64,000 bases of DNA, from positions 1-64,000 of IMG/VR virus record IMGVR_UViG_3300031787_000064, one strand, 5' to 3'. Below, piece by piece: positions 21,648 to 37,984 of this stretch (positions are counted from its first letter, which is position 1; each line of letters starts with the position of its first letter). The position numbers and the translations under genes are program-made. This DNA is from a virus. The notes under the pieces were generated by a model. The model had not been told where the DNA came from and did no database searches. It saw nothing but the letters and a program-made list of their open reading frames with translations.

Positions 21648-21781
21648 GTAAATATACTACAATCTTTTGACACAAAAAAATCTGGAGTCAACTATTTTGA
21701 AAATTCTCTATTGATAATCAATCAGTTATGCAAGCCCTTGGAAGCCAATCAGTTATAAGTCGTTGGTAATCAAACTGTTAT
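21648..21781 (-). promoter_or_regulatory. Iteron-promoter module 1
   Basis: On the minus strand a TATATTTAC element (21648-21656) is preceded by TTTG 16 nt upstream. This matches the Bacteroidota TTTG/TAnnTTTG pattern in outline. Three iterons related to TTGATAATCAATCAGTTAT start at 21711, 21738 and 21763 on the plus strand. The distance from GTAAATATA to the first iteron is 63 nt, identical in modules 2 and 3. It drives the block ending at 15861. Confidence 0.75.
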
Positions 21782-22031
21782 ATACGTAAATATGCTTTCT
21801 AAGTAATTGACTGTCAACTAGTTGTGCGCCGCCGGCGAGACCTGGCCCTAGAACCTGGCTACCCTTTCCTATATATAAACTAACACAAATTGACACAAAA
21901 TAACACTTTCTAACACTTTATTTATGGATACACATATTTTTTTAGTACCTATTCTTTATAGTAATAGGCTTCCGCCTATCTTATTTGTATGTTTCCAGTT
22001 TAAATCCATACCCAGACTTATACCCACAGTA
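21782..22031. other. Non-coding stretch with a GC-rich spot and a small hairpin
   Basis: No credible gene on either strand. A GCGCCGCCGGCG spot near 21826 is unusual for this AT-rich genome. ATAGGC-TTCC-GCCTAT at 21964-21979 is a six-pair hairpin downstream of the minus-strand gene ending at 22032, without a U-run. AACAC repeats occur at 21890-21925. Confidence 0.5.
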
Positions 22032-22235
22032 TCAATTTTGGCACATTTCTACCAGCATCTTCTCCATTCTATCATATAGATCTTTGTCTTCTATCTTATC
22101 TCTCAGGCTTATAAAGTAGTCTACCTTGTCTATCAGGTTCTTTACCTTTTGACAGTGTTCATATTCTTCTATCTCTACCAGCTTATTTAGACTAGTATTT
22201 AATCTATCCTTTATATTCTGGATATTACTATTCAT
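22032..22235 (-). CDS. Small helical protein with UVR-like motif
   Basis: 67 residues, all helical. EEYEHCQKVKNLIDKV (about 23-38) resembles the UVR (UvrB/UvrC interaction) helix pair and is echoed in the protein at 39851-40210. No catalytic domain. Possibly an adaptor, but the family is not certain. Confidence 0.5.
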   Translation of the reverse strand: MNSNIQNIKDRLNTSLNKLVEIEEYEHCQKVKNLIDKVDYFISLRDKIEDKDLYDRMEKMLVEMCQN

Positions 22236-22257
22236 TTCTATTTCTTTCTCAGGTGTT

Positions 22258-22737
22258 TTACTTCAACTTAATGCTGGTCATTTCATACCCTCTTCTAGAG
22301 TCTGTAGTTACCTCAGCATTAGGCAGGTGCTTCTGTATGTACTTGATATACAAACTGAGTCTTGCATTAGACTCTTTATTCTTTCCTTTGGTAGTTTCAA
22401 ACTGTAAGTACTTGATATTAGGATTCTTTTTGATCAAGTCTTTAAGCACCTCTACAATTGTAGCCATGATATTAAATAGGTCTCCTTTTGATGGCACAGC
22501 ATCAAAGTTCGTGAAGCCCATATCATCTTCATCTGGCTCAACAATCCCAAACTGTACAAAAGCTGAGTCACGTTCTTCATCTCCTTCTAGAACCTCTATC
22601 TCTACTTTATAGTAAAAGCCTGTCTTGGTCTGGAACATGTATTCTTTATAGTCTTCATGGTCCGCTGTCATCTTCCAATCATACGGCCTAGACGTAGCTT
22701 CTCCTACCTCTCTAAGTAGATCAATTAGCTTCACCAT
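22258..22737 (-). CDS. Conserved phage protein of unknown function
   Basis: 159 residues, mixed alpha/beta, with an N-terminal MVKLIDLLREVGEA helix. This is a lead-in I have seen in several marine-phage proteins. A KGKNKESNARLSLYIKYIQKH segment near the C-terminus resembles the end of acetyltransferase-like folds, but key motifs are lacking. TAATG overlap couples it to the upstream gene. Confidence 0.55.
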   Translation of the reverse strand: MVKLIDLLREVGEATSRPYDWKMTADHEDYKEYMFQTKTGFYYKVEIEVLEGDEERDSAFVQFGIVEPDEDDMGFTNFDAVPSKGDLFNIMATIVEVLKDLIKKNPNIKYLQFETTKGKNKESNARLSLYIKYIQKHLPNAEVTTDSRRGYEMTSIKLK

Positions 22738-23012
22738 TAGTTATTGATTAAGTACTCTGCAAATCCTTTTATGCTTCCTGCTTCTGGAAAGTACTGCATC
22801 ATCCTTTCTTCTGATGCTACATTCATTTCCAAGAACTCTACAAGACCATCAACGTCTTTGGCCTGGATTAGACTGTAGTACTCATCAAAAGAAGCATTGT
22901 CGTCCATGAACTTGTCCATGTTCCATTGGGCTTCGGCGTAAGCTCTGTCTTCTGATTCTTTCAAAAGACCTGCGGTCTTCTTTAACTGTAGTTGTTCTAT
23001 AAGTTGCTTCAT
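22737..23012 (-). CDS. Small acidic helical protein
   Basis: 91 residues from the ATG at 23012. A start at 23042 would run through the ATATTTATTCTAAAAG motif, so the inner one is preferred. Its N-terminus MKQLIEQLQLKKTAGLLKESE ends in an L-K-E similar to head-protease sites. Function unknown. Confidence 0.55.
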   Translation of the reverse strand: MKQLIEQLQLKKTAGLLKESEDRAYAEAQWNMDKFMDDNASFDEYYSLIQAKDVDGLVEFLEMNVASEERMMQYFPEAGSIKGFAEYLINN

Positions 23013-23023
23013 CTTTCTTTTAG

Positions 23024-23032
23024 AATAAATAT
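23024..23032 (-). promoter_or_regulatory. ATATTTATT motif before the 22737-23012 gene
   Basis: On the minus strand GATATTTATTCTAAAAG ends 11 nt before the preferred ATG. ATATTTATTCTAAAAG is identical to the copy before the virion operon. Confidence 0.45.
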
Positions 23033-23072
23033 CTAGCCACATTCTTTGTCTTTATGTACTGACAAATCCACA

Positions 23073-23174
23073 CTAATCCAAATCTTTAGTCTGGTCCCAC
23101 ACGTCTAGTAGTGCCCAAAGTGCAAAGGCACAAGCACCAACCCATATAACCAAGAATAATAATAGGTCTATCAT
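23073..23174 (-). CDS. Small membrane peptide (33 aa), not seen in routine calls
   Basis: The frame begins ATGATAGACC at 23174. The ATG overlaps the upstream stop as ATGA, a classical coupled junction. The product starts MIDLLLFLVIWVGACAFALW, a single hydrophobic helix of about 20 residues, and ends in a charged tail (DVWDQTKDLD). The coupling and clean membrane helix make it a credible gene. Function unknown, perhaps a host membrane modulator. Confidence 0.6.
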   Translation of the reverse strand: MIDLLLFLVIWVGACAFALWALLDVWDQTKDLD

Positions 23175-23368
23175 TTTATTTCTCCTCCATCCATTTTATT
23201 AGGGTATACCTTTATATCGTCGTCATAGAAGTTTCTGACACTACCGTTCTCGTATAGCACAACCTTCCATACCGTATTAACTTGGCTTCCATAGTCTATC
23301 CATGCTATGGCCTTGCCGTAGCCTAAAGGTGTTTCTACGTCTATTGTGTTTCTTAGTTCGTGTATCAT
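23171..23368 (-). CDS. Small protein of unknown function
   Basis: 65 residues, beta-rich (AIAWIDYGSQVNTVWKVVLY, about 20-39). It is coupled by ATGA to the membrane peptide. A short intergenic leader with TTAACC precedes it. Confidence 0.5.
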   Translation of the reverse strand: MIHELRNTIDVETPLGYGKAIAWIDYGSQVNTVWKVVLYENGSVRNFYDDDIKVYPNKMDGGEIK

Positions 23369-23371
23369 AGG

Positions 23372-23746
23372 TTAACTAAATATCTTTTCTTTTTCTTTTA
23401 AAGCCACAACTTCACTATAAAACCAAATCTTTCTATTTTGCAAGTAAGACTCAAAGTTATCGACCAACTTTCTCACACTCTCCATGTCCTTGTCTTGTTT
23501 GTTGAACACTCCATAGAAATTACACTTGATCATGACAGTTTCACGGCCTTTAAACAACTCTTCTACATAAGACTGAAAAAGCCCTTCTTGTTTCCAATCA
23601 TGAAGAATATTCTCAAACTCGGAGTCATACTCTGAGTGCCTGTGAGTCTTCTCTAAAAACGTACACAACTCTGCCATATCACTAGGTATTACCAAAGCTA
23701 TTAAATACCAATCTGCTTTCTTTTCAAGGTCCCAAATTAGTCTCAT
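23372..23746 (-). CDS. Conserved phage protein of unknown function
   Basis: 124 residues with an alternating strand-helix pattern. The first 20 residues (MRLIWDLEKKADWYLIALVI) are mildly hydrophobic, not a clear signal peptide. KGRETVMIKCNFYGVF sits in the middle. No motif recognised. Confidence 0.5.
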   Translation of the reverse strand: MRLIWDLEKKADWYLIALVIPSDMAELCTFLEKTHRHSEYDSEFENILHDWKQEGLFQSYVEELFKGRETVMIKCNFYGVFNKQDKDMESVRKLVDNFESYLQNRKIWFYSEVVALKEKEKIFS

Positions 23747-23874
23747 ACTCTTTTGTTTTTGGATAAGGTTGATACTTAGCTCTTAACTCTTAACTAGCCA
23801 AATGGCTTACTGGATAACATATTTGTATTTACAAGGTTTTTGGCCCCCTTCGCGAAACCCCAACCCCGCGCTCG

Positions 23875-24084
23875 TTACCACCTCAACACGATCGTCTCAC
23901 CCGTGTTATGTGTAGGCATATAGAACTGCATCTTGTGTTCTCTTAAAACCTTGTGAGTCAGTTCTTTCATTCTGTCCGAATTACCGGTTATGATCTTCAA
24001 AGGAGGTTCATTCATTAGAACCCAATTCTCTACCACGTCTTGAACGTCGTAGTGTGATACTCCATGTAGGTCTAGTTGTTTCAT
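23875..24084 (-). CDS. Smr-domain protein
   Basis: 69 residues. LDLHGVSHYDVQDVVENWV (about 4-22) followed by PLKIITGNSDRM is the Smr/MutS2 C-terminal domain signature (LDLHGxxxxxA, then IITGxGxxS). Known Smr domains bind or nick nucleic acids, and ribosome- and mRNA-associated members are described. In this copy the usual Gly-x-Gly is GNSD. It is translationally coupled to a 28-residue membrane peptide upstream (ATGA). A GC-rich spot follows it. Confidence 0.8.
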   Translation of the reverse strand: MKQLDLHGVSHYDVQDVVENWVLMNEPPLKIITGNSDRMKELTHKVLREHKMQFYMPTHNTGETIVLRW

Positions 24085-24167
24085 GATATTATTGACATTA
24101 TGATAAAAAATCCTACCATACTAACAGTAATAACTATGGTCCAAATATTGTCTTTATTCAATCTCAT
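24081..24167 (-). CDS. Small membrane peptide (28 aa), coupled on both sides
   Basis: MRLNKDNIWTIVITVSMVGF is followed by a hydrophobic end. It is a one-helix peptide with an N-terminal positive charge. Its start overlaps the end of the upstream gene (14 nt) and its stop overlaps the Smr-domain start as ATGA. Both junctions are typical of the surrounding operon, so it is likely a real gene although very short. Confidence 0.55.
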   Translation of the reverse strand: MRLNKDNIWTIVITVSMVGFFIIMSIIS

Positions 24168-24447
24168 GGTAAATTATTTGAGGCTCTAGCTTTTCAAATT
24201 CCTCTTTCTGCTTCTCTTGGTTTATGTAGAACTCGGCTTCACTTTTGCTGTGGACTATAAGCCTGTCATAAGGTCTGCCTGACTTTGTGAAAGCTATCCA
24301 ACCGTTTCCTTTATTTAATTCAGGTATCCATAGACTATAACTAGGATACTTCTCTTCTAGTATTCTGTATTGTGTCATGTCTTTATTGTTTTCAAGCCAC
24401 TCCATATAGCTGGCTCCTTTTGTTTCATAGATCTGTTCTATGGTCAT
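24154..24447 (-). CDS. Small protein of unknown function
   Basis: 97 residues, charged and helical with aromatic clusters (YSLWIPELNKGNGWIAFTKS). The last bases overlap the next small gene. Its own start overlaps the upstream stop (ATGA at 24444). No family recognised. Confidence 0.5.
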   Translation of the reverse strand: MTIEQIYETKGASYMEWLENNKDMTQYRILEEKYPSYSLWIPELNKGNGWIAFTKSGRPYDRLIVHSKSEAEFYINQEKQKEEFEKLEPQIIYHEIE

Positions 24448-24674
24448 AGCTTTTTTATCTCCTCTTTTACTTCATTCCAATACTCTCTAAACTTATCTCT
24501 AGCTGATAGTCCTATTTCTTCTCTTGATCCTCCCCAAATAAAGCCTGCATTATTTAGCATTTCATTTGCTACTATTAACGCACCTTCCTTTGCTCTCCAT
24601 TCTGGATCAGGTGTATCGGCTACCAATTCATAGATGCGGCTGTTTAACTCCTGTGCTTTGTCTTTAGGTGTCAT
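24444..24674 (-). CDS. Small helical protein of unknown function
   Basis: 76 residues. TPDPEWRAKEGALIVANEML (about 20-39) and a Lys-rich end suggest a helical bundle. It overlaps the upstream gene by 4 nt. Function unknown. Confidence 0.5.
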   Translation of the reverse strand: MTPKDKAQELNSRIYELVADTPDPEWRAKEGALIVANEMLNNAGFIWGGSREEIGLSARDKFREYWNEVKEEIKKL

Positions 24675-24898
24675 TTGTTTTCAAATTCAGATTTGTAATA
24701 ACCTTTTCCATCACTATAGTCTGCAAGTATATTTCCGTTCCTTCCTAAGAAGTTGCCATCATTCCAAGCTTCTTGGATCTGCTCCTTCTCCATTTGTTTG
24801 GCTTGTTGAAATAAGCCTTCAAATTGCATTTGTTGCTTATGAGTTAGTTTTAATTGAACAAACTCGTACAAAAAGTTTACTGCTGTTTGTTGTGCCAT
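24671..24898 (-). CDS. QTAV-family small phage protein 1
   Basis: 75 residues from the ATG at 24898 (TAATATG junction). A start at 24907 adds three residues but precedes the upstream stop. MAQQTAVNFLYE, then QAKQMEKEQIQEAW, is a signature shared with the genes at 25167 and 29754. Such short proteins (TAVEWL, then QAKxMEKEQI) are frequent in phages of Bacteroidota. Function unknown. Confidence 0.65.
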   Translation of the reverse strand: MAQQTAVNFLYEFVQLKLTHKQQMQFEGLFQQAKQMEKEQIQEAWNDGNFLGRNGNILADYSDGKGYYKSEFENK

Positions 24899-24899
24899 A

Positions 24900-25127
24900 T
24901 TATTCACATTTACATTCGTTATTTAATATTGGGTTGTGCTTACATAATTTAACATTATCCCCTATTGGCATCATATTGGTAAATGTCGAATTACAAAATG
25001 CACAAGTGTAATAACCCCTACGGTGTTCAATCCATTTATGACTATTCCAAACCCAGTCGTTCCAATACATTTTTTCTGCATCTGTTTCAGATATTTTGAA
25101 AACTTCTTCTTTAATTGGTATAAACAT
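24900..25127 (-). CDS. Small zinc-ribbon-like protein
   Basis: 75 residues. A YTCAFCNSTF motif (CxxC, about 50-60) with a later LCKH-x5-CKCE end forms a plausible zinc site. W-rich N-terminal half (WNDWVWNSHKW). It ends one base before the QTAV-family gene (TAATATG). Confidence 0.5.
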   Translation of the reverse strand: MFIPIKEEVFKISETDAEKMYWNDWVWNSHKWIEHRRGYYTCAFCNSTFTNMMPIGDNVKLCKHNPILNNECKCE

Positions 25128-25166
25128 ATTATTTGTTTTTGTATGTTTGGTTGTAGTATTGTTTAT

Positions 25167-25370
25167 TTAATGTACGTGAGGTTCTTTTGCCTTACACCCT
25201 TCCTTTCCACATCCTTGTTCGTAGAATTCTACTATTGCCTTTAGTTTATTATTTTCGATTATCTGCTCCTTCTCCATTTGTTTGGCTTTTTCTTTCCATT
25301 CACTAGGTGCTGCATATCCTGCAAAAAGAAATCTTTCATACAACCAATCTACTGCTGTTTGTTGTGCCAT
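25167..25370 (-). CDS. QTAV-family small phage protein 2
   Basis: 67 residues. It begins MAQQTAVDWLYERF and continues AKQMEKEQIIENN, paralogous to the gene at 24671. The end is CGKEGCKAKEPHVH, with two Cys and two His that could bind a metal. The ATG follows the upstream stop by one base. Confidence 0.65.
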   Translation of the reverse strand: MAQQTAVDWLYERFLFAGYAAPSEWKEKAKQMEKEQIIENNKLKAIVEFYEQGCGKEGCKAKEPHVH

Positions 25371-25371
25371 A

Positions 25372-25536
25372 TTATTTGTTTTTAGCTATTTCAATCATTT
25401 TTGCTAATACTATTTCATCAACATGATCGGCTAGATCTTTAGCTACATCTGCTATTGGTTTTATTTGAGACACTTCTTTAGCCATTTCTTCAGCTAGTTT
25501 TACTCTTTTAGCTACCTCTTGTTTATCTGGTGTCAT
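25372..25536 (-). CDS. Small helical protein
   Basis: 54 residues from the ATG at 25536. The longer frame to 25602 would overlap the preceding gene by 56 nt and is not preferred. It is an Ala/Lys/Val-rich helix (KRVKLAEEMAKEV and on). The stop is followed by TATG of the next gene. Function unknown. Confidence 0.5.
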   Translation of the reverse strand: MTPDKQEVAKRVKLAEEMAKEVSQIKPIADVAKDLADHVDEIVLAKMIEIAKNK

Positions 25537-25546
25537 ATTATTTACT

Positions 25547-25840
25547 TTATACTTCGTAGACCGTATGTGGATAGTATTCAACACAGTATACCTCGATAAC
25601 ATCTAGCTCTGTAGTTTTCTCATTATGAATAATGCTTGTATAACTATAGGTATAATGTCCTTCATAGTCATCAGGATACTTAGTTTCATAAGGAACGAAT
25701 CCAAGACATTGAGCATCTGTTCCATCTACAGCATAATATTCATCTAAGCCTTTACGTAGATCATCAAATGTACTTGCTGACATAATAGGTTTCCCATATT
25801 CATTTAATGCTATGTATGTTACTTTAACTCTTGTTCCCAT
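25547..25840 (-). CDS. Small tyrosine-rich protein
   Basis: 97 residues with a Tyr-rich C-terminal half (YEGHYTYSYTSI, then VYCVEYYPHTVYEV). Likely a small beta-fold. No family recognised. A TAATATG junction links it to the gene upstream. Confidence 0.5.
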   Translation of the reverse strand: MGTRVKVTYIALNEYGKPIMSASTFDDLRKGLDEYYAVDGTDAQCLGFVPYETKYPDDYEGHYTYSYTSIIHNEKTTELDVIEVYCVEYYPHTVYEV

Positions 25841-25841
25841 A

Positions 25842-26174
25842 TTATTTTAAATTTTCTGGTATCTCCGGTCTTATAAGAAGTTCCCACCATTCTGCACCAT
25901 CATAGTCACCTCTTTCAGCCCATGTACCATCTTCAAACCATACCGTTCCAAATATTTCTTGCAGTCCGAACCCTCTATCGTATTCGAAGTCTAGGTATTT
26001 TAAGAACTCTTTAAAATCTTCTGGGGTGTAATTACACTTAAGATCGGCTTTAGTTCTTCTCTGTACACTAGCGGGACTTAACAGACCTTCAGTCCAATAC
26101 TCATGAACGATTGTAGCACATGACACCGTCTTGTCTTTACACATGTCAAGAAACTCTTCTTTAGCGTTAATCAT
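25842..26174 (-). CDS. Conserved phage protein of unknown function
   Basis: 110 residues from the ATG at 26174 (TAATATG after the small gene upstream); the reading frame itself extends to 26222. Helical N-terminus, then GTVWFEDGTWAERGDYDGAE and a WWEL end, typical of small acidic phage proteins. No motif known to me. Confidence 0.55.
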   Translation of the reverse strand: MINAKEEFLDMCKDKTVSCATIVHEYWTEGLLSPASVQRRTKADLKCNYTPEDFKEFLKYLDFEYDRGFGLQEIFGTVWFEDGTWAERGDYDGAEWWELLIRPEIPENLK

Positions 26175-26175
26175 A

Positions 26176-26313
26176 TTACTTAGTATATAAGTTAATGAAT
26201 ACTCCCCACTTCCACCAAGCAATCTCTAGGTCTATTTGATCCTGGTAGTTATGAACTGCTATTACTGGTAGTACATAACGTTTCCACTTCTCTGTAAATT
26301 TGTAACATTGCAT
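26176..26313 (-). CDS. Small protein (45 aa), missed by length cut-off
   Basis: MQCYKFTEKWKRYVLPVIAV, then an amphipathic W-rich helix (IAWWKWGVF). Start at 26313, stop TAA immediately followed by TATG of the next gene, the same junction used by its neighbours. It fills an otherwise empty gap. The overlapping reading frame starting at 26222 belongs to the downstream gene and is not used here. Confidence 0.6.
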   Translation of the reverse strand: MQCYKFTEKWKRYVLPVIAVHNYQDQIDLEIAWWKWGVFINLYTK

Positions 26314-26335
26314 AAGGTAAATTTAAGACAATTAT

Positions 26336-26608
26336 TTATTTCTTCTTATGTTTTGGTAGATAGTGTTTCACTTTCTTTTTTAGCTTCTCTATTTGAATCT
26401 GTTTGTACCAGTTACCAAGCCAACTAGAAGGTTGGTGGTTTTCCCAATAGTGAAGTTGATCAAAGACTTCTCTATTTGCTTCATTCAAATAATCAATGTC
26501 ATCATAAGAGTGATCTCCTCTCACGGCTTCTTCCCACTCATCTAGAGTGATCTTAGGTGTTTCTTCATACTTCTTTCGAAGTTGCTTCTTAATTTTTTTG
26601 GTTGGCAT
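26336..26608 (-). CDS. Small basic protein
   Basis: 90 residues from the ATG at 26608. MPTKKIKKQLRKKYEE start and a KKKVKHYLPKHKKK end are both strongly basic, so nucleic-acid binding is plausible. The upstream gene overlaps it by 20 nt. An upstream ATG at 26644 exists but would increase the overlap. Confidence 0.55.
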   Translation of the reverse strand: MPTKKIKKQLRKKYEETPKITLDEWEEAVRGDHSYDDIDYLNEANREVFDQLHYWENHQPSSWLGNWYKQIQIEKLKKKVKHYLPKHKKK

Positions 26609-26831
26609 ATATTTGTTTAAATGTTTCGAAGTCTTCCCACCCATCTTCTACTTCAACCAATATCTTGCCATCTTCTGACTTTGCAATACCGCCTATTCCG
26701 AAACCTTCACATATGTAACCGTACACGCACCAACCTTTCTCTAAGTCTTCTGCTATATCTATGATTGAAAAATCTGGTTTTATTCCGTGGTGATCGTAGA
26801 TCTCACACCATTCTTTTGAAAACTCTGCCAT
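26589..26831 (-). CDS. Small acidic protein
   Basis: 80 residues, acidic, with an ICEGFGIGGIAKSEDGKILV segment resembling a beta-hairpin. It overlaps both neighbours. Function unknown. Confidence 0.5.
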   Translation of the reverse strand: MAEFSKEWCEIYDHHGIKPDFSIIDIAEDLEKGWCVYGYICEGFGIGGIAKSEDGKILVEVEDGWEDFETFKQIYANQKN

Positions 26832-27183
26832 ATTTACTGTTTTTTATTGGTAGTAACCAATTGTGATAAAAGAATGTTTTAGGTTTAAAGTGATCGTCTA
26901 CGCTCTTTACAAACTTGTTTACATACAACATCAGATTCATCATCTCTTTCTCTTTAACTCTCTTACCATGCTTACGATAGAAGGCATTGATCTCATCTAA
27001 TACTTTACTGATACCATGTTGTTTGATATGACCATAAGTTATATAGTAACTAGGTACGTCATAGATCTGGAATGTTTGCTTGTTTTTAAGTAAGTTTGTA
27101 GGTAGTTTAAATTTCATCTCAGCCTTGTACTTGTTCCAGAAGCAATACCAAACTGAGCCGTTACCCCATCTGCTGTATATCAT
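26803..27183 (-). CDS. Conserved phage protein of unknown function
   Basis: 126 residues, basic and aromatic. It starts MIYSRWGNGSVWYCFWNKYK and contains a lysine-rich helix (RKHGKRVKEKEM, about 69-80). It is coupled to the upstream gene by a 4-nt overlap. No family recognised. Confidence 0.55.
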   Translation of the reverse strand: MIYSRWGNGSVWYCFWNKYKAEMKFKLPTNLLKNKQTFQIYDVPSYYITYGHIKQHGISKVLDEINAFYRKHGKRVKEKEMMNLMLYVNKFVKSVDDHFKPKTFFYHNWLLPIKNSKYGRVFKRMV

Positions 27184-27617
27184 TGTCTGTTTATTTTTTT
27201 ATATCCTTTATAGTGATAAACTCCATCTTTGAATACAGCAAGGTGCATAACTGTAGACTCATTAAAGCTAGCATGTGATATTCTCAACAACTGCTTTTGA
27301 ATCTGGTAACCATCCCAACCACGCTGATCTTCAGTAACCTTACATTCGTGTATCTCACCTGTCTCTGTATCTATTAGGTCATGGTATAGGTGATTCTTAT
27401 TCTCGTTTAGTCTTTCTATTGCCTTTATAAACTTAGGATTCTCTTGCATTAAATAATGTTCAAGAGGAAGTCCTATATATGTTCTCTTATATATGTCTTC
27501 ATCTGTTCTATTCTTACGCCTTGTTTTACTATTCTTAAGACGTTGGTAAGTGTCTTCGATATCCTTACGAAGCTTAACCTTATCTTTTATGTCTTCTAAA
27601 GTAAACTGTGTTTTCAC
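27180..27617 (-). CDS. Conserved phage protein with GTG start
   Basis: 145 residues from a GTG that overlaps the upstream stop (GTGA). Helical N-terminal half with RRKNRTDEDIYKRTYIG, then DTETGEIHECKVTEDQRGWD. A C-terminal ILRISHASFNE-like strand. Possibly DNA- or RNA-binding. No family recognised. Confidence 0.6.
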   Translation of the reverse strand: MKTQFTLEDIKDKVKLRKDIEDTYQRLKNSKTRRKNRTDEDIYKRTYIGLPLEHYLMQENPKFIKAIERLNENKNHLYHDLIDTETGEIHECKVTEDQRGWDGYQIQKQLLRISHASFNESTVMHLAVFKDGVYHYKGYKKINRQ

Positions 27618-27778
27618 TTTACAGGATTATACATTTTGAATTTTGCTAACTGATTTACTTGCTTTATAAGTTCGTTAACTTTTAATTTCCACTCTTGGTA
27701 TTCCTGCCTCTTTCTTTTATCAGGCTTCTCTTCTAATAACTGTTCAATCTCATCAGTTAATTCAACTACGGCTGGCAT
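27614..27778 (-). CDS. Small helical protein (54 aa), missed by length cut-off
   Basis: MPAVVELTDEIEQLLEEKPD is followed by a long charged helix to QLAKFKMYNPVK. Heptad-like leucines suggest a coiled coil. Stop TGA overlaps the next GTG start (GTGA), and the upstream gene ends just before it. The coupling supports a real gene. Confidence 0.65.
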   Translation of the reverse strand: MPAVVELTDEIEQLLEEKPDKRKRQEYQEWKLKVNELIKQVNQLAKFKMYNPVK

Positions 27779-27780
27779 AA

Positions 27781-28008
27781 TTAAAAACGTTTTGCTATGT
27801 TAATAATTGTTTGTTCGTCTTCTTTACTTATTGACATATAGTTTCCTTTCAGTTTATTTAGAGCATCATCATACTCTTGTTCTGATATAGACTTTATGTC
27901 TAGATCTTCTTGAGGTATAAAACCATTATCTCTTAACCAATCAATTGCATAATGAACTACACCTTGCTCATTCATTTTCTCCATTGTCTCTGATACAGTT
28001 GTTCTCAT
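27781..28008 (-). CDS. Small helical protein of unknown function
   Basis: 75 residues. Helical, with HYAIDWLRDNGFIPQEDLDI, a segment recalling QTAV-type proteins without their signature. TAATATG junction from the peptide upstream. Function unknown. Confidence 0.5.
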   Translation of the reverse strand: MRTTVSETMEKMNEQGVVHYAIDWLRDNGFIPQEDLDIKSISEQEYDDALNKLKGNYMSISKEDEQTIINIAKRF

Positions 28009-28009
28009 A

Positions 28010-28081
28010 TTATTCTTTTTCAGTGTTTTTATGTATTTTATATAAAAGTATAATAATAACGACTAATAAAAAATTTTGCAT
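28010..28081 (-). CDS. Tiny membrane peptide (23 aa)
   Basis: MQNFLLVVIIILLYKIHKN and a short charged end. It begins a few bases after the metallophosphatase stop and ends in the TAATATG junction of the next gene. Single membrane helix with a positively charged cytoplasmic-type tail. Short, so confidence is limited. Confidence 0.45.
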   Translation of the reverse strand: MQNFLLVVIIILLYKIHKNTEKE

Positions 28082-28091
28082 ATCATTTATT

Positions 28092-28847: not shown

Positions 28848-28892
28848 AACCTATTTTGTTAAATATACAATATTAATTGATCGTGATAAAAT

Positions 28893-29234: not shown

Positions 29235-29257
29235 AACCTAATTTTAGTTGCGTGTTA

Positions 29258-29530: not shown

Positions 29531-29541
29531 ATAAGTTCTTT

Positions 29542-30176: not shown

Positions 30177-30180
30177 AAGT

Positions 30181-30495: not shown

Positions 30496-30514
30496 AACTA
30501 TTTAATTTAATTTT

Positions 30515-30976: not shown

Positions 30977-30981
30977 AACTT

Positions 30982-31221: not shown

Positions 31222-31226
31222 AACTT

Positions 31227-31667: not shown

Positions 31668-31688
31668 AACTTTTATTTTTTTGTTTAG

Positions 31689-31760
31689 AAGTCAGAGCAG
31701 GATTCGAACCTACATCTCTCACCTACTATAGTGAGGCGTTACCATTTACGCTACCTGACT
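31689..31760 (-). tRNA. tRNA-like gene with abnormal anticodon loop
   Basis: Acceptor AGTCAGG/TCTGACT, D arm GCGT-AAATGGTA-ACGC and T arm GTAGG-TTCGAAT-CCTGC are all sound. The anticodon arm is one base short of the usual length. Either TCACT/GGTGA closes a six-base loop ATAGTA, or CTCAC/GTGAG closes an eight-base loop TATAGTAG with residue 26 missing. With T33 as the invariant U, the anticodon reads AGT (Thr), but identity is not certain. No CCA is encoded. It could be a pseudo-tRNA, a suppressor type or contain a sequencing slip. Confidence 0.65.
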
Positions 31761-31776
31761 TAAGATAACCAAAATA

Positions 31777-32709
31777 TTAGCTCAACTTAGGAAGCCTAAT
31801 ACTAGTAGATCTTTTGCTAGCAAGCTCTTTCTCTTTAGCAATGCTTTCTAAGATCTCATCGAATCTTTTTACAGCATAATCGCTTTTCTCTTGAGCATCT
31901 TTATTTTGCCAAGAAACAACTTTATCAATAAAGTCCTCGAACTGTTTGGTAGTCACTTGGCAGGTTGTAGTTATGCCAGTATGATTGTCTATAGTAAGAT
32001 CATATTTGTAACCAACTTTCTTGTTAACCGTGAACTCACGAACAAACACGTAGTCATATTTAGATCGACCAGTTTGAAGCTTGATCTCACCAGGATTATC
32101 TTGAAGCTCACGCTCATTAGAGGAATAATCTTCTGAACGAACCCATTCAATTGACTTATAACTCTTGAGCTTAAGTGAAAAACCAGGCTTCATGAAAGAA
32201 GTCTTTTGATCGTTTTCAATATCTGACTCAAGTTCACGGATACTACGATGAAGTGCATCGATAGGTGATTGTAATTGTCTTAACGCAATACTAATCTCTT
32301 TACAACGCTTTGACCAATTATTCAAGAATAGATCTTTGATAGTCTCATGATTCTCACATATACGACCAATCGTGATGCCATACTCGATATCACTAGGATC
32401 AGAATGTGTGTTACCACTAGACCAATTGAATTGAAATTCAGGAGCCTCTTTCTCACGCCACGTGTTTCTAATACTGAATTCTAGGCGATTTGCCCAACGA
32501 TCTTTTTGAGTATGCATAGTAAGACTCTCACTACTAATGTCCGCCTTCAAAATGCTAAGACGAATGTTTTGATTGAACCACTCTAAGATCTCATCGTTAA
32601 GACTCTGTAAATTCACATTGAATACATTCGTAGTGTATTCACTAACCTCGTTTTGTTTAACGAGCAATTGCGCTTGAAGCGCTTCCAACATAACTTGTTT
32701 GTTGTTCAT
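31777..32709 (-). CDS. Large early protein of unknown function, first gene after iteron module 2
   Basis: 310 residues from the ATG at 32709. That start is preferred over 32748 because it carries the usual AATAATAGTTATG leader. Mostly helical with two coiled-coil-like regions, at about 10-40 and 150-190. A central beta region has Trp/Ser clusters (FNWSSGNTHSDPS). A C-terminal TSIRLPKLS tail. No family recognised. Its length and place directly behind the promoter suggest a main early protein. Confidence 0.6.
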   Translation of the reverse strand: MNNKQVMLEALQAQLLVKQNEVSEYTTNVFNVNLQSLNDEILEWFNQNIRLSILKADISSESLTMHTQKDRWANRLEFSIRNTWREKEAPEFQFNWSSGNTHSDPSDIEYGITIGRICENHETIKDLFLNNWSKRCKEISIALRQLQSPIDALHRSIRELESDIENDQKTSFMKPGFSLKLKSYKSIEWVRSEDYSSNERELQDNPGEIKLQTGRSKYDYVFVREFTVNKKVGYKYDLTIDNHTGITTTCQVTTKQFEDFIDKVVSWQNKDAQEKSDYAVKRFDEILESIAKEKELASKRSTSIRLPKLS

Positions 32710-32780
32710 AACTATTATTGTTTTTTGGTTATCAATATACTGTGCCATTTGGACTAGCCTAAAATGGGCTTAGAATCTAT

Positions 32781-32936
32781 GTAAATATACAACAATCCAG
32801 TGAGATAAAAAAATATCTAGTGAACTATTTTAAAAATTGTCGATTGATTATCAATCAGTTGTGCAAGTTGTTGAAAGTGAATAAGTTATAAGTGGTTGAT
32901 TACCAATAGGTTAACCCTAACTTATTGATTATCAAT
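32781..32936 (-). promoter_or_regulatory. Iteron-promoter module 2
   Basis: TATATTTAC on the minus strand at 32781-32789. The -33-like part reads TTTTATC, weaker than in modules 1 and 3. Iterons start at 32844, 32871 and 32896 on the plus strand (periods 27 and 25, as in module 1). A fourth short copy (TTGATTATCAAT, 32925-32936) overlaps the end of the upstream gene. First iteron 63 nt from GTAAATATA. Confidence 0.75.
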
Positions 32937-33248
32937 CCCATACTTCTGGATAAGCTTGTCTATTATCTCTTTATCCATCTTATTGAACGTCTTTTGATCT
33001 TGTATTTTTCTGACGTAGTCAATATGTTTATTGATAGTGATTAATCTTAAAGCATATTGTTCGTGGTGGTGTGTATTTGTAGAACAGAACTTATACTCTT
33101 TAGTCAGTGTTTCTTTAAGTAACTTAACTCTGTTAATGTAAGGATCTGGTTCTGTCTTCTTAGGTCTATTCTCGAATAGCTCTTTAGCTTCCATAGCTTT
33201 GACAAGTTTATCACCCATCTTCGATATGGAGAAGCTATTGAATTTCAT
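32922..33248 (-). CDS. Small basic helical protein
   Basis: 108 residues. Positively charged helices throughout. Its last codons (GIDNQ-stop) are written by the extra iteron copy of module 2. Its stop-proximal DNA is therefore dual-purpose. Function unknown. Coupled to the upstream membrane gene (TAATG-like overlap). Confidence 0.5.
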   Translation of the reverse strand: MKFNSFSISKMGDKLVKAMEAKELFENRPKKTEPDPYINRVKLLKETLTKEYKFCSTNTHHHEQYALRLITINKHIDYVRKIQDQKTFNKMDKEIIDKLIQKYGIDNQ

Positions 33249-33541
33249 CAGTCCTTAGATCCCTTAACTATATATTTGAGAATAGTTTTCTGTAGCTCAG
33301 ATAAGGCTTGTGTATTCTCTCTAATCAGTTCAGAGAGTCTGTCTCTCTCTTCTACAAGTAGTGCCATCATCTCTTCTTGTAGCTTATCTACTTTAGCTTC
33401 TAGCTCGTCGTTCTTTTTAACCAGTCTTTGATGCTGCATCCACGCAAAATATCCAAGGATAAATGCAACTAGACCTAGTACTCCGTATTGTAACAAATAA
33501 TCTTTTGTGCTGTGAGTCGTGACGATTTGAAGTAAATACAT
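33248..33541 (-). CDS. Membrane-anchored coiled-coil protein
   Basis: 97 residues. One membrane helix (about 16-35, LLQYGVLGLVAFILGYFAW), then a long heptad-repeat helix to about 90. The same plan occurs at 62235. Such proteins can be spanin-like, holin accessory or host-factor binders; no lipobox is present. Function open. Confidence 0.55.
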   Translation of the reverse strand: MYLLQIVTTHSTKDYLLQYGVLGLVAFILGYFAWMQHQRLVKKNDELEAKVDKLQEEMMALLVEERDRLSELIRENTQALSELQKTILKYIVKGSKD

Positions 33542-33549
33542 TGTTAATG

Positions 33550-33765
33550 TTAATTTAATGGACTAATCTTTTTGTACAACATATATTCCCAATACTTGGC
33601 ATATTCATACAAGTCTTCACGCTTCTCATCTATGATGCCCTTTTCAATCATATCAATCATGATCTCTACCCACATATACCTAGGGTTAACATGGTAATAA
33701 GGATGGATCTCATTTGGTATACCTGACCCGTCTGCAATGTCGTCTAGCACGTCATAATATAACAT
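33550..33765 (-). CDS. Small protein of unknown function
   Basis: 71 residues, acidic and aromatic (PYYHVNPRYMWVEIMIDMI). The initiating ATG lies only 3 nt from an ATATTTATT motif, so that motif cannot easily be its promoter. Function unknown. Confidence 0.5.
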   Translation of the reverse strand: MLYYDVLDDIADGSGIPNEIHPYYHVNPRYMWVEIMIDMIEKGIIDEKREDLYEYAKYWEYMLYKKISPLN

Positions 33766-33768
33766 AAC

Positions 33769-33777
33769 AATAAATAT
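33769..33777 (-). promoter_or_regulatory. ATATTTATT motif close to the 33550-33765 start
   Basis: On the minus strand TAATATTTATTGTTATG. The motif ends 3 nt from the ATG, too near for a normal promoter, which is the main counter-example to the promoter reading. Confidence 0.25.
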
Positions 33778-33794
33778 TAGTTTTACTTTAAGGA

Positions 33795-34172
33795 TTATTT
33801 ACCGAATAGTTCTTTAATACATTTTTTGGCATCACGTTTGGCAATCTTGTATGCTTCTATCTCCATAGGGTGTTTACTATCTGGAAGATACATACTTAAG
33901 ATCTGGTAATGCCTCATGTTTTGCCTGTAATGTGTATATTCATGGATAATACTACAGGCTAGTTCATGTAGATCATGGTGCATACTTTTATCTATAAAGA
34001 TGGTGGATTCTATCTCATCATAGAATGCCATACACCCTTCAGTATAGTAGTCACCATTCTTGAACTCTATGTAAGGAAGGTCTCGGTTGTATTTAGACAT
34101 ACCATATTTTGCAACACACCAATCAAAGATCTTGTTGGCATGTCGCTTGGTAAGCTTTGGTTGTTTGTCCAT
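33795..34172 (-). CDS. HExxH zincin-like metallopeptidase 1
   Basis: 125 residues. IIHEYTHYRQNM (HEYTH at 77-81) has the zinc-binding HExxH motif, with candidate third ligand Glu at 104 or 106 (HPMEIEAY). This is the layout of compact gluzincin-like peptidases of phages (IrrE/ImmA-related or SprT-like in appearance). It lies directly before a second HExxH gene. Substrate unknown; anti-host-factor proteolysis is speculation. Confidence 0.7.
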   Translation of the reverse strand: MDKQPKLTKRHANKIFDWCVAKYGMSKYNRDLPYIEFKNGDYYTEGCMAFYDEIESTIFIDKSMHHDLHELACSIIHEYTHYRQNMRHYQILSMYLPDSKHPMEIEAYKIAKRDAKKCIKELFGK

Positions 34173-34174
34173 AA

Positions 34175-34768
34175 CTAGATTTGTTCTTCAATGAAGACCT
34201 GTTCGATCTTCTTGGGTAACTTATTATAGTTCATTCTAAAGTGGTTAGGCATCATTTTAACTAACCTCTTGTTTGAATACGGGCTATTGTTAGAGGTACA
34301 CCATTTCCTGGTGGCCAACATTCTATTATAAAAATGAATGTAACAATTGGCCTTCTTTATGTATTGATCAATGTCTATATCTAATCCGAACTTCTTTATG
34401 ATCTTGACAGCTCTTTTCTCGTTGTCTAGTTCTAGGTCTCTAGACACGGCTAGATGCTTCTTAATGTCTCTAACTTCCTCACCCATCAACCAATCGTCTA
34501 CTTTAGGGATCGATACATCTGCCTTCTTCCACAAGTCTATCTGATCTACCCATTGGGTCAAATGAGCAAACTCATGTGCCAAGATCTCTATGGAGTCTGG
34601 TCTATTCATAGAGCATACCAGCTCCTTATTATATTCGTCAAAATACCCAGAACATTGTAACTTGCCTGGGAGCCTGACGTATTTGGTGCGTCTGAGATCA
34701 CACTTGATCCCATACTTCTTGCACTCTTGTTTAACGTACTTTACGAATTCTTTTGCTTTCTTATTCAT
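34175..34768 (-). CDS. HExxH zincin-like metallopeptidase 2
   Basis: 197 residues. ILAHEFAHLTQW (HEFAH at 65-69) and a later LELDNEKRAV with Glu 113 or 117 as possible third zinc ligand. The C-terminal half is basic with YIHFYNRMLATRKWC. Related in layout to its neighbour but longer. It may act on host or phage proteins. Adjacent tandem peptidases in one operon are unusual. Confidence 0.7.
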   Translation of the reverse strand: MNKKAKEFVKYVKQECKKYGIKCDLRRTKYVRLPGKLQCSGYFDEYNKELVCSMNRPDSIEILAHEFAHLTQWVDQIDLWKKADVSIPKVDDWLMGEEVRDIKKHLAVSRDLELDNEKRAVKIIKKFGLDIDIDQYIKKANCYIHFYNRMLATRKWCTSNNSPYSNKRLVKMMPNHFRMNYNKLPKKIEQVFIEEQI

Positions 34769-34796
34769 AGAATGTCTTTTTAAAGGTCAAAGAATC

Positions 34797-35120
34797 CTAT
34801 GATAAATATTCCGTTTGGATTTGTTCTATATGTTTACAGGTTCCAGCCCTGCCACTAAATTTGAAGGCGTGGCAATTGCATGACCAGTTTTTATGGTCCA
34901 GCTTTACAGTATAAGAACGGCCTCCATTTCCTTCAACGTCCCAATCCAACCTCAACTTAAAGGCCTCATTTGTGCCTCCTACGTGAGGCTTACGGAACCA
35001 CATAAGGTCGGCTTCCGTAGTCCCACTAGGAACATCGATCCTCTTACCATCTACTTGGACATAAGTACCTTTGTCGTCTTGAGTAGGAAAAGGATATTGA
35101 AAGCTGTGTATTATTATCAT
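34797..35120 (-). CDS. SWIM zinc-finger protein
   Basis: 107 residues. WSCNCHAFKFSGRAGTCKHI (about 82-101) fits CxC-x(n)-CxH, the SWIM finger. Residues 1-75 form a small beta domain. SWIM domains bind DNA or protein. It overlaps the upstream gene by 4 nt. A role in DNA transactions is possible but unproven. Confidence 0.75.
   Translation of the reverse strand: MIIIHSFQYPFPTQDDKGTYVQVDGKRIDVPSGTTEADLMWFRKPHVGGTNEAFKLRLDWDVEGNGGRSYTVKLDHKNWSCNCHAFKFSGRAGTCKHIEQIQTEYLS
34801..34809 (-). promoter_or_regulatory. ATATTTAT motif 32 nt before the peptidase-2 start
   Basis: On the minus strand GAATATTTATCATAGG lies inside the end of the SWIM gene, with the longest gap to a start of all copies. Confidence 0.3.
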
Positions 35121-35329
35121 AGGGGTTTAAATTTAAATAAATTCCAGACTCTGGAAAAATCAAAGCCTGTAGTTTTTGGTTTTAGTTTACCGAAGTCATA
35201 CTCACTATGGAGATTATGTGCTTGAGGTTGATCGTTTCTGCAAGCAGAACCCACTCTAAACATATTCATCCACTCTTGTTGACTTACTTTCTCAGGATAA
35301 GTTGTACTCTTAATTTTAATGTTGCTCAT
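35117..35329 (-). CDS. Small protein of unknown function
   Basis: 70 residues from the ATG at 35329, preferred over 35377 because the longer form overlaps the upstream gene. It contains SQQEWMNMFRVGSACRNDQP and a basic end. Overlaps the SWIM gene by 4 nt. Confidence 0.5.
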   Translation of the reverse strand: MSNIKIKSTTYPEKVSQQEWMNMFRVGSACRNDQPQAHNLHSEYDFGKLKPKTTGFDFSRVWNLFKFKPL

Positions 35330-35336
35330 ATTAATT

Positions 35337-36017
35337 TTATTTAGTGTAACCAAATATTTTTGAATCATCAATTTCACAATAAGAATAATCTACTTTAACT
35401 ACCTTAGTTAACTCCTTTTGCTTGATAGTGCCTGTCTTACGATCTTCAATCATAACAGTAGCAACACCTGCATAAGGATCAAGATCAATTGAATCATAGT
35501 ACTCGTTAGCTTGCTCAAATGTATCAAACAAACGCGTCTCTGTATCTTTATCAGTATATCCATCTAACAACTCTGATTCAAAGTCGTCTTCATTTTCTAC
35601 AGTAAAGTAAGGACTAACTGTAACAAAGAACTTATTAGGGTCTTTTCCATCACCTATGATCTCTCTAGCTAGCTCTTTAATTTGTGCTTCACTCAATTCA
35701 ACTGTACTATTATCACGTAAAGATGAGAGAGCTTGATTGATTTGCTCGGCCGCAAGATCAGTAACTGTGCCATTAAAACCACCAATATGCCACTCGATCA
35801 TTTCATCTGTACGAAGCATACGATATTCTTTCCAATCGTATACAGTAAAGACTTCACCAGACTCGAGCTCCATTTCCCACTCGAAGTTGACTTTGTCTTG
35901 ACCTGTATTTGAATCTTCATTAGGTTCACCTAATACCTGGATTAACTGATCAACGCTTGCAGTTACAATACTATCATGGAAGCTAGTTCCTGATACACGC
36001 TTATTTGTCTTTTTCAT
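35337..36017 (-). CDS. Conserved phage protein of unknown function
   Basis: 226 residues from the ATG at 36017, chosen for its AATAAAGGTTAT leader; 36056 would overlap the preceding gene. The SFHDSIVTASVDQLIQVLGE start and VNFEWEMELESGEVFTVYDW belong to a set I have seen in several phage genomes without known role. The C-terminal half is acidic alpha/beta. Confidence 0.6.
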   Translation of the reverse strand: MKKTNKRVSGTSFHDSIVTASVDQLIQVLGEPNEDSNTGQDKVNFEWEMELESGEVFTVYDWKEYRMLRTDEMIEWHIGGFNGTVTDLAAEQINQALSSLRDNSTVELSEAQIKELAREIIGDGKDPNKFFVTVSPYFTVENEDDFESELLDGYTDKDTETRLFDTFEQANEYYDSIDLDPYAGVATVMIEDRKTGTIKQKELTKVVKVDYSYCEIDDSKIFGYTK

Positions 36018-36039
36018 ATAACCTTTATTTAGTTTTAAA

Positions 36040-36267
36040 TTATTGAATGTCTTCAAATTGTCCCCAAGGAAAATTCATATCAAACTTGATATTTGCACTT
36101 CTACAAACACTACCAAGATCAACTACTACTCCATAAGGAATGTTTGATAAAATAGTATTCTCTTGTAGAGTTTCTTCAAGGCGAATAGCCGTATTTGGAT
36201 AATCTACTTTGAATGACGCAATAGCCTTCTTAAGCTCAGGCTTGGCTCTTTCTAATAATGTTTTCAT
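36040..36267 (-). CDS. Small protein of unknown function
   Basis: 75 residues, helical start then strands (VVDLGSVCRSANIKFDMNFP). Leader AAACAGTTATG. No family recognised. Confidence 0.5.
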   Translation of the reverse strand: MKTLLERAKPELKKAIASFKVDYPNTAIRLEETLQENTILSNIPYGVVVDLGSVCRSANIKFDMNFPWGQFEDIQ

Positions 36268-36273
36268 AACTGT

Positions 36274-36450
36274 TTATTTTAATTGTTTTTTAAATTCTTT
36301 AATTGGATCTTGTTTAGCAATACGTTTAATGTAACTACTAACTCTATGCTTCTCATTTAATGAACGCATAAGTTCATCTCGTTCTAAGGTCTCTTTCAAC
36401 CATTGTTCTCTGTTAGTCTCATATAGACTAAGTTTTTTATCTTTACTCAT
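36274..36450 (-). CDS. Small basic helical protein (58 aa), missed by length cut-off
   Basis: MSKDKKLSLYETNREQWLKE, then a charged helix to KEFKKQLK. Start overlaps the upstream stop as ATGA and the frame fills the gap exactly. Strongly basic, perhaps nucleic-acid binding. Credible because of coupling and length. Confidence 0.65.
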   Translation of the reverse strand: MSKDKKLSLYETNREQWLKETLERDELMRSLNEKHRVSSYIKRIAKQDPIKEFKKQLK

Positions 36451-36728
36451 AACTCATAATTTGGTTCATAATCTTCATCTGTATCGTAGCATCCTACCAT
36501 ACGTTCTAACTCAGCATCAATACGAAGTTGATGAGGTCTCCAACGTTCATAACGTTCTGCATTTGTTTCTTTATCTTCAGGCCAATGACTATCATTGTCC
36601 CAACCTTTTGGAAACATAGGCTTAAGATCTTCACTACTTACATTAGGATTGATTGTTTGAATCTCACTATCAAACACATTTTTGTCTAGGCTAATAAGCC
36701 TCTCTAAATTTTCTTTCACACTTTTCAT
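36447..36728 (-). CDS. Small acidic protein of unknown function
   Basis: 93 residues from the ATG at 36728 (MKSVKENLERLISLDKN). A start at 36737 is possible. Trp/Pro/Glu-rich middle. Coupled to the next gene by ATGA. Confidence 0.5.
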   Translation of the reverse strand: MKSVKENLERLISLDKNVFDSEIQTINPNVSSEDLKPMFPKGWDNDSHWPEDKETNAERYERWRPHQLRIDAELERMVGCYDTDEDYEPNYEL

Positions 36729-36745
36729 AACACACAATTTTATAA

Positions 36746-37057
36746 TTAATAATCAAATGAATCTCTCATATTGAAGTCCTCGTCTTCTAGAATGTCAATT
36801 TGCTCTTCGATCACACTATCAGGAACATGGCCATCCAAAAACATTTCAAGCTCAACCTCTTTTAGTATCTGATCAATTGGCATTGCTTTGTACTTTCTAA
36901 TTTCTACTTTGATCTCTTGACCCAAATACTCGATAACTGCAATACCTTTAGTACCTTCTTTGTAGGTATACTCTCGTCCTTTTGGACTTACGAACGTCTT
37001 ACCAACTTTAGCACTATCCCAATCTCTCTTCTTACCAACTTCTTTTCTTTGCATCAT
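36746..37057 (-). CDS. Small acidic protein of unknown function
   Basis: 103 residues. KVGKTFVSPKGREYTYKEGT looks like a small strand-rich domain, followed by an acidic helix. Two adjacent ATG codons; the first (37057) or second is used. AAAAATAAATGTTATG leader. Confidence 0.5.
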   Translation of the reverse strand: MMQRKEVGKKRDWDSAKVGKTFVSPKGREYTYKEGTKGIAVIEYLGQEIKVEIRKYKAMPIDQILKEVELEMFLDGHVPDSVIEEQIDILEDEDFNMRDSFDY

Positions 37058-37074
37058 AACATTTATTTTTTAGG

Positions 37075-37269
37075 TTATTCAAATAAACAATTCTCTTGCT
37101 CCCATCGACCGTTTATAAGTCTCTCGATCGTATAGTCACCATTGTACTTACGATTCTCTGGGTGTGTTAGCCACACTTTCACATCGTCTTTCCAAATCTT
37201 GAGTTCGTCTCCGTCCCAAGCTTGCTCGATTGTATCGAGACTTTCTAGTTGTCTTTTTGTGTATTTCAT
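37075..37269 (-). CDS. Small protein of unknown function
   Basis: 64 residues, Trp/Lys-rich (WDGDELKIWKDDVKVWLTHP). Leader AAATAAAAGTTATG. No family recognised. Confidence 0.5.
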   Translation of the reverse strand: MKYTKRQLESLDTIEQAWDGDELKIWKDDVKVWLTHPENRKYNGDYTIERLINGRWEQENCLFE

Positions 37270-37316
37270 AACTTTTATTTGTAATTAAATATAATTATGG
37301 AGTCGCGGTCAATCAA

Positions 37317-37508
37317 TTAAAGTCCACATTCCATTCTGTATACTCTATCATGGTGTTCAGCCTCTGAATATACATCTAAATTCAAATATGTATTATTCCA
37401 AAAATTATGAAATAAATACGTATCCGCCCATTTAAGGTCAGCTTTCATCACCACTTTAGCTTCATCAGCTGTTAATACTTCTTTTTGTTTTAATTCTTGT
37501 ACGTTCAT
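37317..37508 (-). CDS. Small protein of unknown function
   Basis: 63 residues, helical, MNVQELKQKEVLTADEAKVV start. TAATAGTTATG-type leader. No family recognised. Confidence 0.5.
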   Translation of the reverse strand: MNVQELKQKEVLTADEAKVVMKADLKWADTYLFHNFWNNTYLNLDVYSEAEHHDRVYRMECGL

Positions 37509-37522
37509 AACTATTATTTTTA

Positions 37523-37813
37523 TTAGCTTAAAGAACTTAATACCACACCTTTGTAACCAAGGCTATTAGCCTTCTCGATACCAACGAACTCGCTAAAGTC
37601 TTCACCTGGTACCTCATACAAGTATACCTGGAAGTTCTCACAAAACTTCTTAATATGCTTGGACTGCTCGGCCCAATCCATATACATCGTATTGATGCCT
37701 AACGTATAGTCAAGCCAATCGTGAACATCACAAATATTCAATACAGGAAATTCGCTTTGTAGCTCAGCGATAACTCTGTTTCTACCTTCTAATACTAATT
37801 CATTCATATTCAT
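37523..37813 (-). CDS. First gene behind iteron module 3, unknown function
   Basis: 96 residues. Mixed alpha/beta with Trp/Tyr clusters (YTLGINTMYMDWAEQ). The perfect AAAATAAAAGTTATG leader and a TATATTTAC promoter-like site 39 nt upstream mark it as the head gene of its operon. No family recognised. Confidence 0.55.
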   Translation of the reverse strand: MNMNELVLEGRNRVIAELQSEFPVLNICDVHDWLDYTLGINTMYMDWAEQSKHIKKFCENFQVYLYEVPGEDFSEFVGIEKANSLGYKGVVLSSLS

Positions 37814-37851
37814 AACTTTTATTTTAAGTGTCCTTTAATCAATCGAACAAT

Positions 37852-37984
37852 GTAAATATACTACGAATTTTTGACACCAAAAAATTTTTAGTGAACTATT
37901 TTGAAAATTGTCGATTGATAATCAATTAGTTATGCAAGTGATTGGAAATCAATCAGTTACACACCTTGATAATCAATTAGTTAC
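37852..37984 (-). promoter_or_regulatory. Iteron-promoter module 3
   Basis: Minus-strand TATATTTAC (37852-37860) with TTTG 17 nt upstream. Iterons start at 37915, 37942 and 37966 on the plus strand (periods 27 and 24). The AGTGAACTATTTTGAAAATTG block between promoter and iterons is almost identical to module 2. Distance promoter to first iteron is 63 nt as in the others. It heads the block that ends at 32922. Confidence 0.8.

Follow-up and report, generated by a model that had tools for sequence, protein, structure and literature searches.

Three spaced iteron arrays upstream of promoter-like boxes in a phage genome, and a host IHF-like protein as their predicted binder

Module anatomy and gene blocks

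The window analysed here, a 64,000-nt stretch of virus record IMGVR_UViG_3300031787_000064 in IMG/VR (positions 1 to 64,000 of the record), contains three modules (at 21648, 32781 and 37852), in each of which a −7-like box, TATATTTAC on the minus strand, is followed by a conserved AACTATTTTnAAAATT block and three iterons. Read along the minus strand, every module runs in the order iterons, AAAATAGTTSACT block, T-rich stretch, TATATTTAC box and start codon. As an earlier note on this DNA had claimed, each module lies just upstream of a block of minus-strand genes. The ATG stands 23–39 nt from the box (23, 33 and 39 nt beyond it in modules 1, 2 and 3, respectively). The features are:

15861 to 21625, minus strand: gene block after module 1, about 12 open reading frames (ORFs), including a DUF932 protein
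21648 to 21656, minus strand: module 1, −7-like box TATATTTAC, 23 nt before the ATG at 21625
21690 to 21705, minus strand: module 1, conserved block AACTATTTTnAAAATT (as read on the plus strand)
21711 to 21729, plus strand: module 1, iteron 1, TTGATAATCAATCAGTTAT, centre 67 bp from the box
21738 to 21756, plus strand: module 1, iteron 2, degenerate, TTGGAAGCCAATCAGTTAT
21763 to 21781, plus strand: module 1, iteron 3
22032 to 32748, minus strand: gene block after module 2, about 30 ORFs, mostly small
32781 to 32789, minus strand: module 2, −7-like box, 33 nt before the ATG at 32748
32823 to 32838, minus strand: module 2, conserved block AACTATTTTnAAAATT
32844 to 32862, plus strand: module 2, iteron 1
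32871 to 32889, plus strand: module 2, iteron 2, degenerate
32896 to 32914, plus strand: module 2, iteron 3, degenerate
32917 to 32935, minus strand: module 2, fourth site, inverted (palindrome core 32925–32935), overlapping the 3′ end of the ORF at 32922–33248
32922 to 37813, minus strand: gene block after module 3
37852 to 37860, minus strand: module 3, −7-like box, 39 nt before the ATG at 37813
37894 to 37909, minus strand: module 3, conserved block AACTATTTTnAAAATT
37915 to 37933, plus strand: module 3, iteron 1
37942 to 37960, plus strand: module 3, iteron 2
37966 to 37984, plus strand: module 3, iteron 3

The spacing within the modules is fixed. In every module iteron 1 begins 63 nt after the start of GTAAATATA (21648, 32781 and 37852, with iteron 1 at 21711, 32844 and 37915), the offset from iteron 1 to iteron 2 is 27 nt, again in all three (starts at 21738, 32871 and 37942), and that from iteron 2 to iteron 3 is 25, 25 and 24 nt in modules 1, 2 and 3 (starts at 21763, 32896 and 37966), placing the iteron centres 67, 94 and 118/119 bp from the box. 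We thus recover the positions and the 63-, 27- and 24–25-nt offsets given in the note, whose description of the modules as 'identical' is too strong, because they are only 80–87% alike over 82 bp, with degenerate iterons in modules 1 and 2. When up to three mismatches are allowed, the iteron 19-mer has eight matches in the window, all of them inside the modules (0.11 expected; none of 100 shuffles reached eight), and none outside the modules in the whole 79,661-bp virus record. AAAATAGTTSAC is confined to the three modules, and TATATTTAC occurs once more on the minus strand, at 3615, without the rest of the module.

Promoter boxes

In the shape of the box and its distance from the start codon the modules resemble the primary sigma promoters of Bacteroidota (−33 TTTG/−7 TAHHTTTG), in which the −33 element is weak (PMC6847099). 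TATATTTA agrees with the Bacteroidetes −7 consensus TAHHTTTG at seven of eight positions; the modules differ from these promoters in that the window boxes, TATATTTAC, end in A and not G, and in that no −33 element is conserved among them. Bacteroidota primary sigma promoters start transcription 4–5 nt past the box. With the box taken to occupy −12 to −5, its position in Flavobacterium, the centres of the iterons fall at about −72, −99 and −123. Because the boxes stand 23–39 nt before start codons, it is well supported that the three modules are promoters with upstream arrays, at which we infer transcription to start. Most proteins of the three gene blocks are without known function, and comparison of their 56 ORFs with Pfam and PHROGs gave no confident regulator. 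The region had no match in INPHARED by megablast.

Conservation in related phages

Scanning IMG/VR for the box together with the iteron gave 14 stretches, with the exact 75-bp span found only in this phage or its relatives. There are six diverged modules; each of the three window modules has orthologues among them (L022 for module 1, L017, L023 and L026 for module 2, L017 and L026 for module 3), and the neighbouring proteins of relatives that have kept the spacing are roughly 65–98% identical. Wherever the contig can be read, the iteron centres of the diverged modules lie 67, 94 and 118/119 bp from the box, with 68 and 93 bp in L015; the inverted fourth site of module 2 is also kept in three relatives (L017, L023 and L026). 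Conserved positions are restricted to blocks, namely GTAAATATAC, AAAAT, AACTATTTTnAAAATT and ATTGA..ATCAA..AGTT.TG.AAG. The iteron itself is one half of a palindrome, TAACTNATTGATWATCAATNAGTTA, and this full palindrome stands at the same gene junctions in remoter relatives (L164 and L182 for module 2, L163 for module 3) and before homologues of module 1's first gene in L105, L137 and L159. The earlier note had named loss of the spacing in close relatives as a result that would overturn its reading; since the relatives keep both motif and spacing in orthologous modules, the reading survives this comparison.

These relatives bear on two other explanations of the modules. The 80–87% likeness would be expected of recent, functionless duplications, whose equal spacing would be trivial, an explanation that is hardly credible and that the relatives already contradict: orthologous modules keep motif and spacing while other positions change, conservation does not extend beyond the motif blocks, and the palindrome recurs at the same junctions at greater distance. 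Palindromic arrays near promoters are, in addition, typical of repressors, and host nucleoid-associated proteins can silence foreign AT-rich DNA, so that a repressor or host silencing protein on the iterons might keep the three promoters off, through immunity or xenogeneic silencing. We consider this unlikely, as the site centres, at about −58 to −123, are clear of the core promoter and the 56 ORFs of the three blocks yielded no recognisable repressor or integrase; the precise spacing conserved across relatives moreover suggests a benefit to the phage.

The palindrome in other viral contigs

TAACTNATTGATWATCAATNAGTTA occurs in more than 120 IMG/VR stretches and in some named Bacteroidota phages. 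Counting boxes of the form GTAHHTTTR after removal of near-duplicate contigs, we find 72 non-redundant boxes downstream of the palindrome and 13 upstream. The distances between palindrome and box cluster at 52/53, 58, 62/63, 68, 71 and 74 bp, with a periodicity of 5.25 bp (p=5e-5) and, more weakly, of 10.5 bp (p=0.008; n=43 and a uniform null for both); residual kinship of the contigs could inflate these figures. Of 42 boxes lying 45–90 bp away, 31 have an ORF start within the next 90 nt; on the wrong side 3 of 14 do, and the background for all such boxes is 44%. The arrangement is found at about ten places each in two large phage contigs, G323 (482 kb) and G325 (160 kb). Named phages with the site are crAssphage (BK010471), in which it stands upstream of repL and has a box at 69 bp, and cr8_1, with a box at 87 bp; matches in Prevotella Lak phages and Riemerella phages are weaker, and T4 shows no enrichment of the palindrome. 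The view of the earlier note that no phage system of this design had been described needs changing in this respect, as the site, single or arrayed, lies upstream of promoters in many unrelated Bacteroidota-type phage contigs and fits the known IHF consensus. Our literature search for the core motif gave no relevant paper and no description of it in a promoter role.

The same note had offered one protein running a regulon or, instead, replication iterons. The regulon is favoured by the spacing kept in relatives and by boxes 23–39 nt from gene starts. That the arrays are replication iterons to which the promoters are incidental is, by comparison, very improbable. The sites do form iteron-like direct repeats at 24–27 bp, the crAssphage palindrome precedes repL, sites in the bacterial contig L285 lie upstream of an apparent plasmid rep gene, and DnaA boxes (TTATCCACA) stand directly beside the palindrome in two other contigs (L142 and L152), a hint that some elements are connected with replication origins. 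In the present genome, however, there are three copies, each heading a gene block; cumulative GC skew continues through all three modules without a turn; none of the 56 block ORFs matches a Rep family, and the modules contain no DnaA box; and across phages the link to promoter boxes is one-sided.

Sites in bacterial genomes

A Cytophagales metagenome-assembled genome (L028, G001) has 119 sites at one mismatch or fewer, against 1 for the reversed control, and at least 27 sites are present in 8 of the 13 genomes of its family, whereas sites are scarce in most sampled bacterial genomes. At 40 loci sampled from G001 and other genomes the sites are nearly all intergenic, with about 11 between convergent genes, and in tandem gene pairs the site is usually closer to the 3′ end of the upstream gene. 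Many intergenic palindromes near gene 3′ ends are likewise seen in G001 (L029–L048) and in G260 and G212 (L049–L062), some of them central to long inverted repeats (L044, L049 and L057, for example). The E. coli RIB/RIP/BIME-1 elements are IHF-binding repeats at the 3′ ends of transcription units, and the roughly 100 intergenic copies of G001 resemble them in position and in sometimes centring longer inverted repeats; the phage copies, by contrast, are promoter-linked and lie outside hairpins. A large-hairpin context was indeed rejected as a general rule, since it applies to a few host sites only and to none in phages. Between two convergent genes of one bacterial contig (L298:2041-2987) at least eight palindromes follow one another every 132 or 143 bp, and one bacterial genome (L283:2048) has, ahead of what seems to be the L13/S9 ribosomal protein operon, a −7 box with a site 75 bp away, possibly a host promoter of the same design.

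The distribution of the site in phages and bacteria bears on who encodes its binder. Phages that carry the element include some without detected shared proteins (in the stretches compared), and no protein family is common to most loci, the maximum being 23 of 160 viral loci (the loci being fragments). A dedicated phage-encoded activator, or a mobile regulator common to these phages, could nevertheless bind as a dimer to palindromes in class I-like positions: the preferred distances and strict orientation recall class I activator sites, the scarcity of sites in most sampled bacterial genomes makes the element look phage-centred, and with so many block proteins lacking a known function a regulator could go unrecognised. 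This we regard as possible and yet doubtful, given the lack of a shared protein and the roughly 100 sites per genome in some Cytophagales. An element shared by unrelated phages most likely points to a host-encoded binder.

A candidate binder

E. coli IHF has the consensus WATCARNNNNTTR and a 35-bp wrap, and its strong sites carry an A-tract to the left (PMC8421141). WATCARNNNNTTR has 23 matches in the phage genome, eight of them within the modules, and is exact in six of the nine iterons, including iteron 1 of every module. The sequence AAAATT to the left of iteron 1 is invariant in eight aligned modules and absent for iterons 2 and 3, and the AACTATTTTnAAAATT block of module 1 lies where the A-tract arm of an IHF-type site would fall. 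Both arms of the palindrome carry WATCARNNNNTTR, one opposed to the other, and its two AA/TT steps are separated by 9 bp. A distance of 9 bp is the kink spacing of IHF and HU, and it is Arg46 of IHF beta that reads TTR. The 13 genomes of G001's Cytophagales family have one PF00216 (HU/IHF) gene each, and all 12 of the proteins extracted from them contain (I/V)RGFGSF, with the arginine aligned to IHF beta Arg46; IHF beta is the best NCBIfam match of the one tested. With this arginine in both halves of a homodimer, reading TTA on both sides, the symmetry of the palindrome would be explained. Among 30 viral records we found no clear HU/IHF (PF00216) protein and none above cut-off. HU gene copy number failed as a discriminator within the Cytophagales family, whose genomes have a single copy whether they are rich or poor in the motif. 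Loci L315–L323 hold a Bacteroidota IHF-beta-like subfamily in which RNI(S/K)K replaces the RNPKT intercalation tip.

Several observations weigh against an IHF-like host protein as the binder and activator. The Cytophagales protein scores 64 bits against an NCBIfam IHF-beta cut-off of 115, far below the cut-offs for IHF, and its arm has Ile for the intercalating Pro (RNIsK or RNIkK in place of RNPKT, where GRNP is expected). The sites are 24–27 bp apart, less than the wrap of about 35 bp, and therefore cannot all be fully wrapped at once; because of this spacing and the shortfall from the model cut-off, we do not class the array as an IHF site proper. In favour of such a protein, close homologues of the Cytophagales one are present in 18 of 79 other sampled genomes, with a mean of 2.7 sites per genome where there is one and 0.57 where there is none (p=1.6e-7); this correlation is confounded by phylogeny and partly by base composition, with p=0.026 after correction by the reversed-pattern control. 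In a second batch, 5 of 9 genomes with at least two sites had a close homologue, compared with 9 of 39 overall, so that the prediction tying such genomes to the homologue is only partly borne out; the 'phylum' sample of genomes seems to include quite different HU proteins, and its taxonomic width is uncertain. The motif-rich Cytophagales sites sit by gene 3′ ends without a tie to promoters (boxes are 3 downstream and 2 upstream), on which ground a role of host sites as promoter operators was rejected for the genomes sampled. The site is lacking from several Bacteroidota phages (crAss001, phi14:2, phi38:1, FCL-2, B40-8 and MA9V-1), with no enrichment in these or in phi10:1, the half-turn (5.25-bp) periodicity departs from the full turn that a simple bend or class I contact predicts, and the Cytophagales in which the candidate was read may not be the hosts of this phage.

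Neighbouring genes

Just past module 3 lie HNH/homing endonuclease-like genes (window 38016-38657, 38718-39467 and 40228-40887), and at 41212-62190 the phage carries about 20 kb of surface-sugar genes, among them glycosyltransferases, an NAD-dependent epimerase, a DegT aminotransferase, a 3-dehydroquinate-synthase-like protein and a thiamine pyrophosphate (TPP) enzyme. Beyond the window, the phage record encodes a 1121-aa ORF (L009:8757-12122; genome 68757-72122) that is probably the source of an outer-membrane beta-barrel and carboxypeptidase-regulatory Pfam match in its group's scan, in which matches were not assigned individually.

Proposed mechanism and implications

A host DNA-bending protein bound upstream is known to boost phage promoters such as lambda pL and Mu Pe, and class I activators of the CRP type act from sites near −61.5, −71.5 and −82.5. 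By analogy, the present system would work like an IHF-assisted or class I activated phage promoter. It resembles the former in its site consensus, WATCARNNNNTTR, and in the A-tract to the left, and differs in having three to four sites 24–28 bp apart, at a fixed distance and before three operons, in a general form that is a palindrome of two IHF half consensuses, and in a candidate binder that is a single IHF-beta-like protein with Ile for the intercalating Pro. With class I promoters it shares a palindrome that lies upstream of the core promoter at preferred distances; it differs in that these distances advance by about 5 bp and not 10.5, and in that the site has no known CRP-like regulator.

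The reading we favour, at about an even chance (roughly 0.5), is that the phage borrows an IHF-like host bender to activate its three promoters. Anatomy, conservation, specificity of place, the fixed distance to promoter-like boxes and the fit to the IHF consensus can be read directly from the DNA; we infer the binder, activation rather than repression, and any early timing. The modules would be phage promoters that the primary RNA polymerase of the host uses; their core is weak, with a −7-like box and no conserved −33, and would be aided by the upstream array. The predicted occupant of each iteron is a DNA-bending host protein from the HU/IHF family, which in the Cytophagales examined would be the single IHF-beta-like protein, forming a homodimer. 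Iteron 1 with its AAAATT tract may be the main wrapped site, to which the other iterons would add occupancy, and wrapping upstream may bring DNA or the alpha domains of the polymerase into contact, so that the three minus-strand gene blocks would be activated together.

More tentatively, and a little less probably than not, Bacteroidota phages from ordinary size to a 482-kb contig may share one promoter architecture, in which a 25-bp palindrome at quantised distances upstream would be read by a Bacteroidota-specific, sequence-specific homodimeric IHF-like protein recruited as a general activator. Phages of Bacteroidota are abundant in water and gut, and the control of their promoters is hardly known. 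A short element in unrelated phages points to one host protein on which all of them would depend; it offers a sequence-level handle for predicting promoters of Bacteroidota phages, and with it the DNA specificity of the Bacteroidota IHF-like protein can be tested directly.

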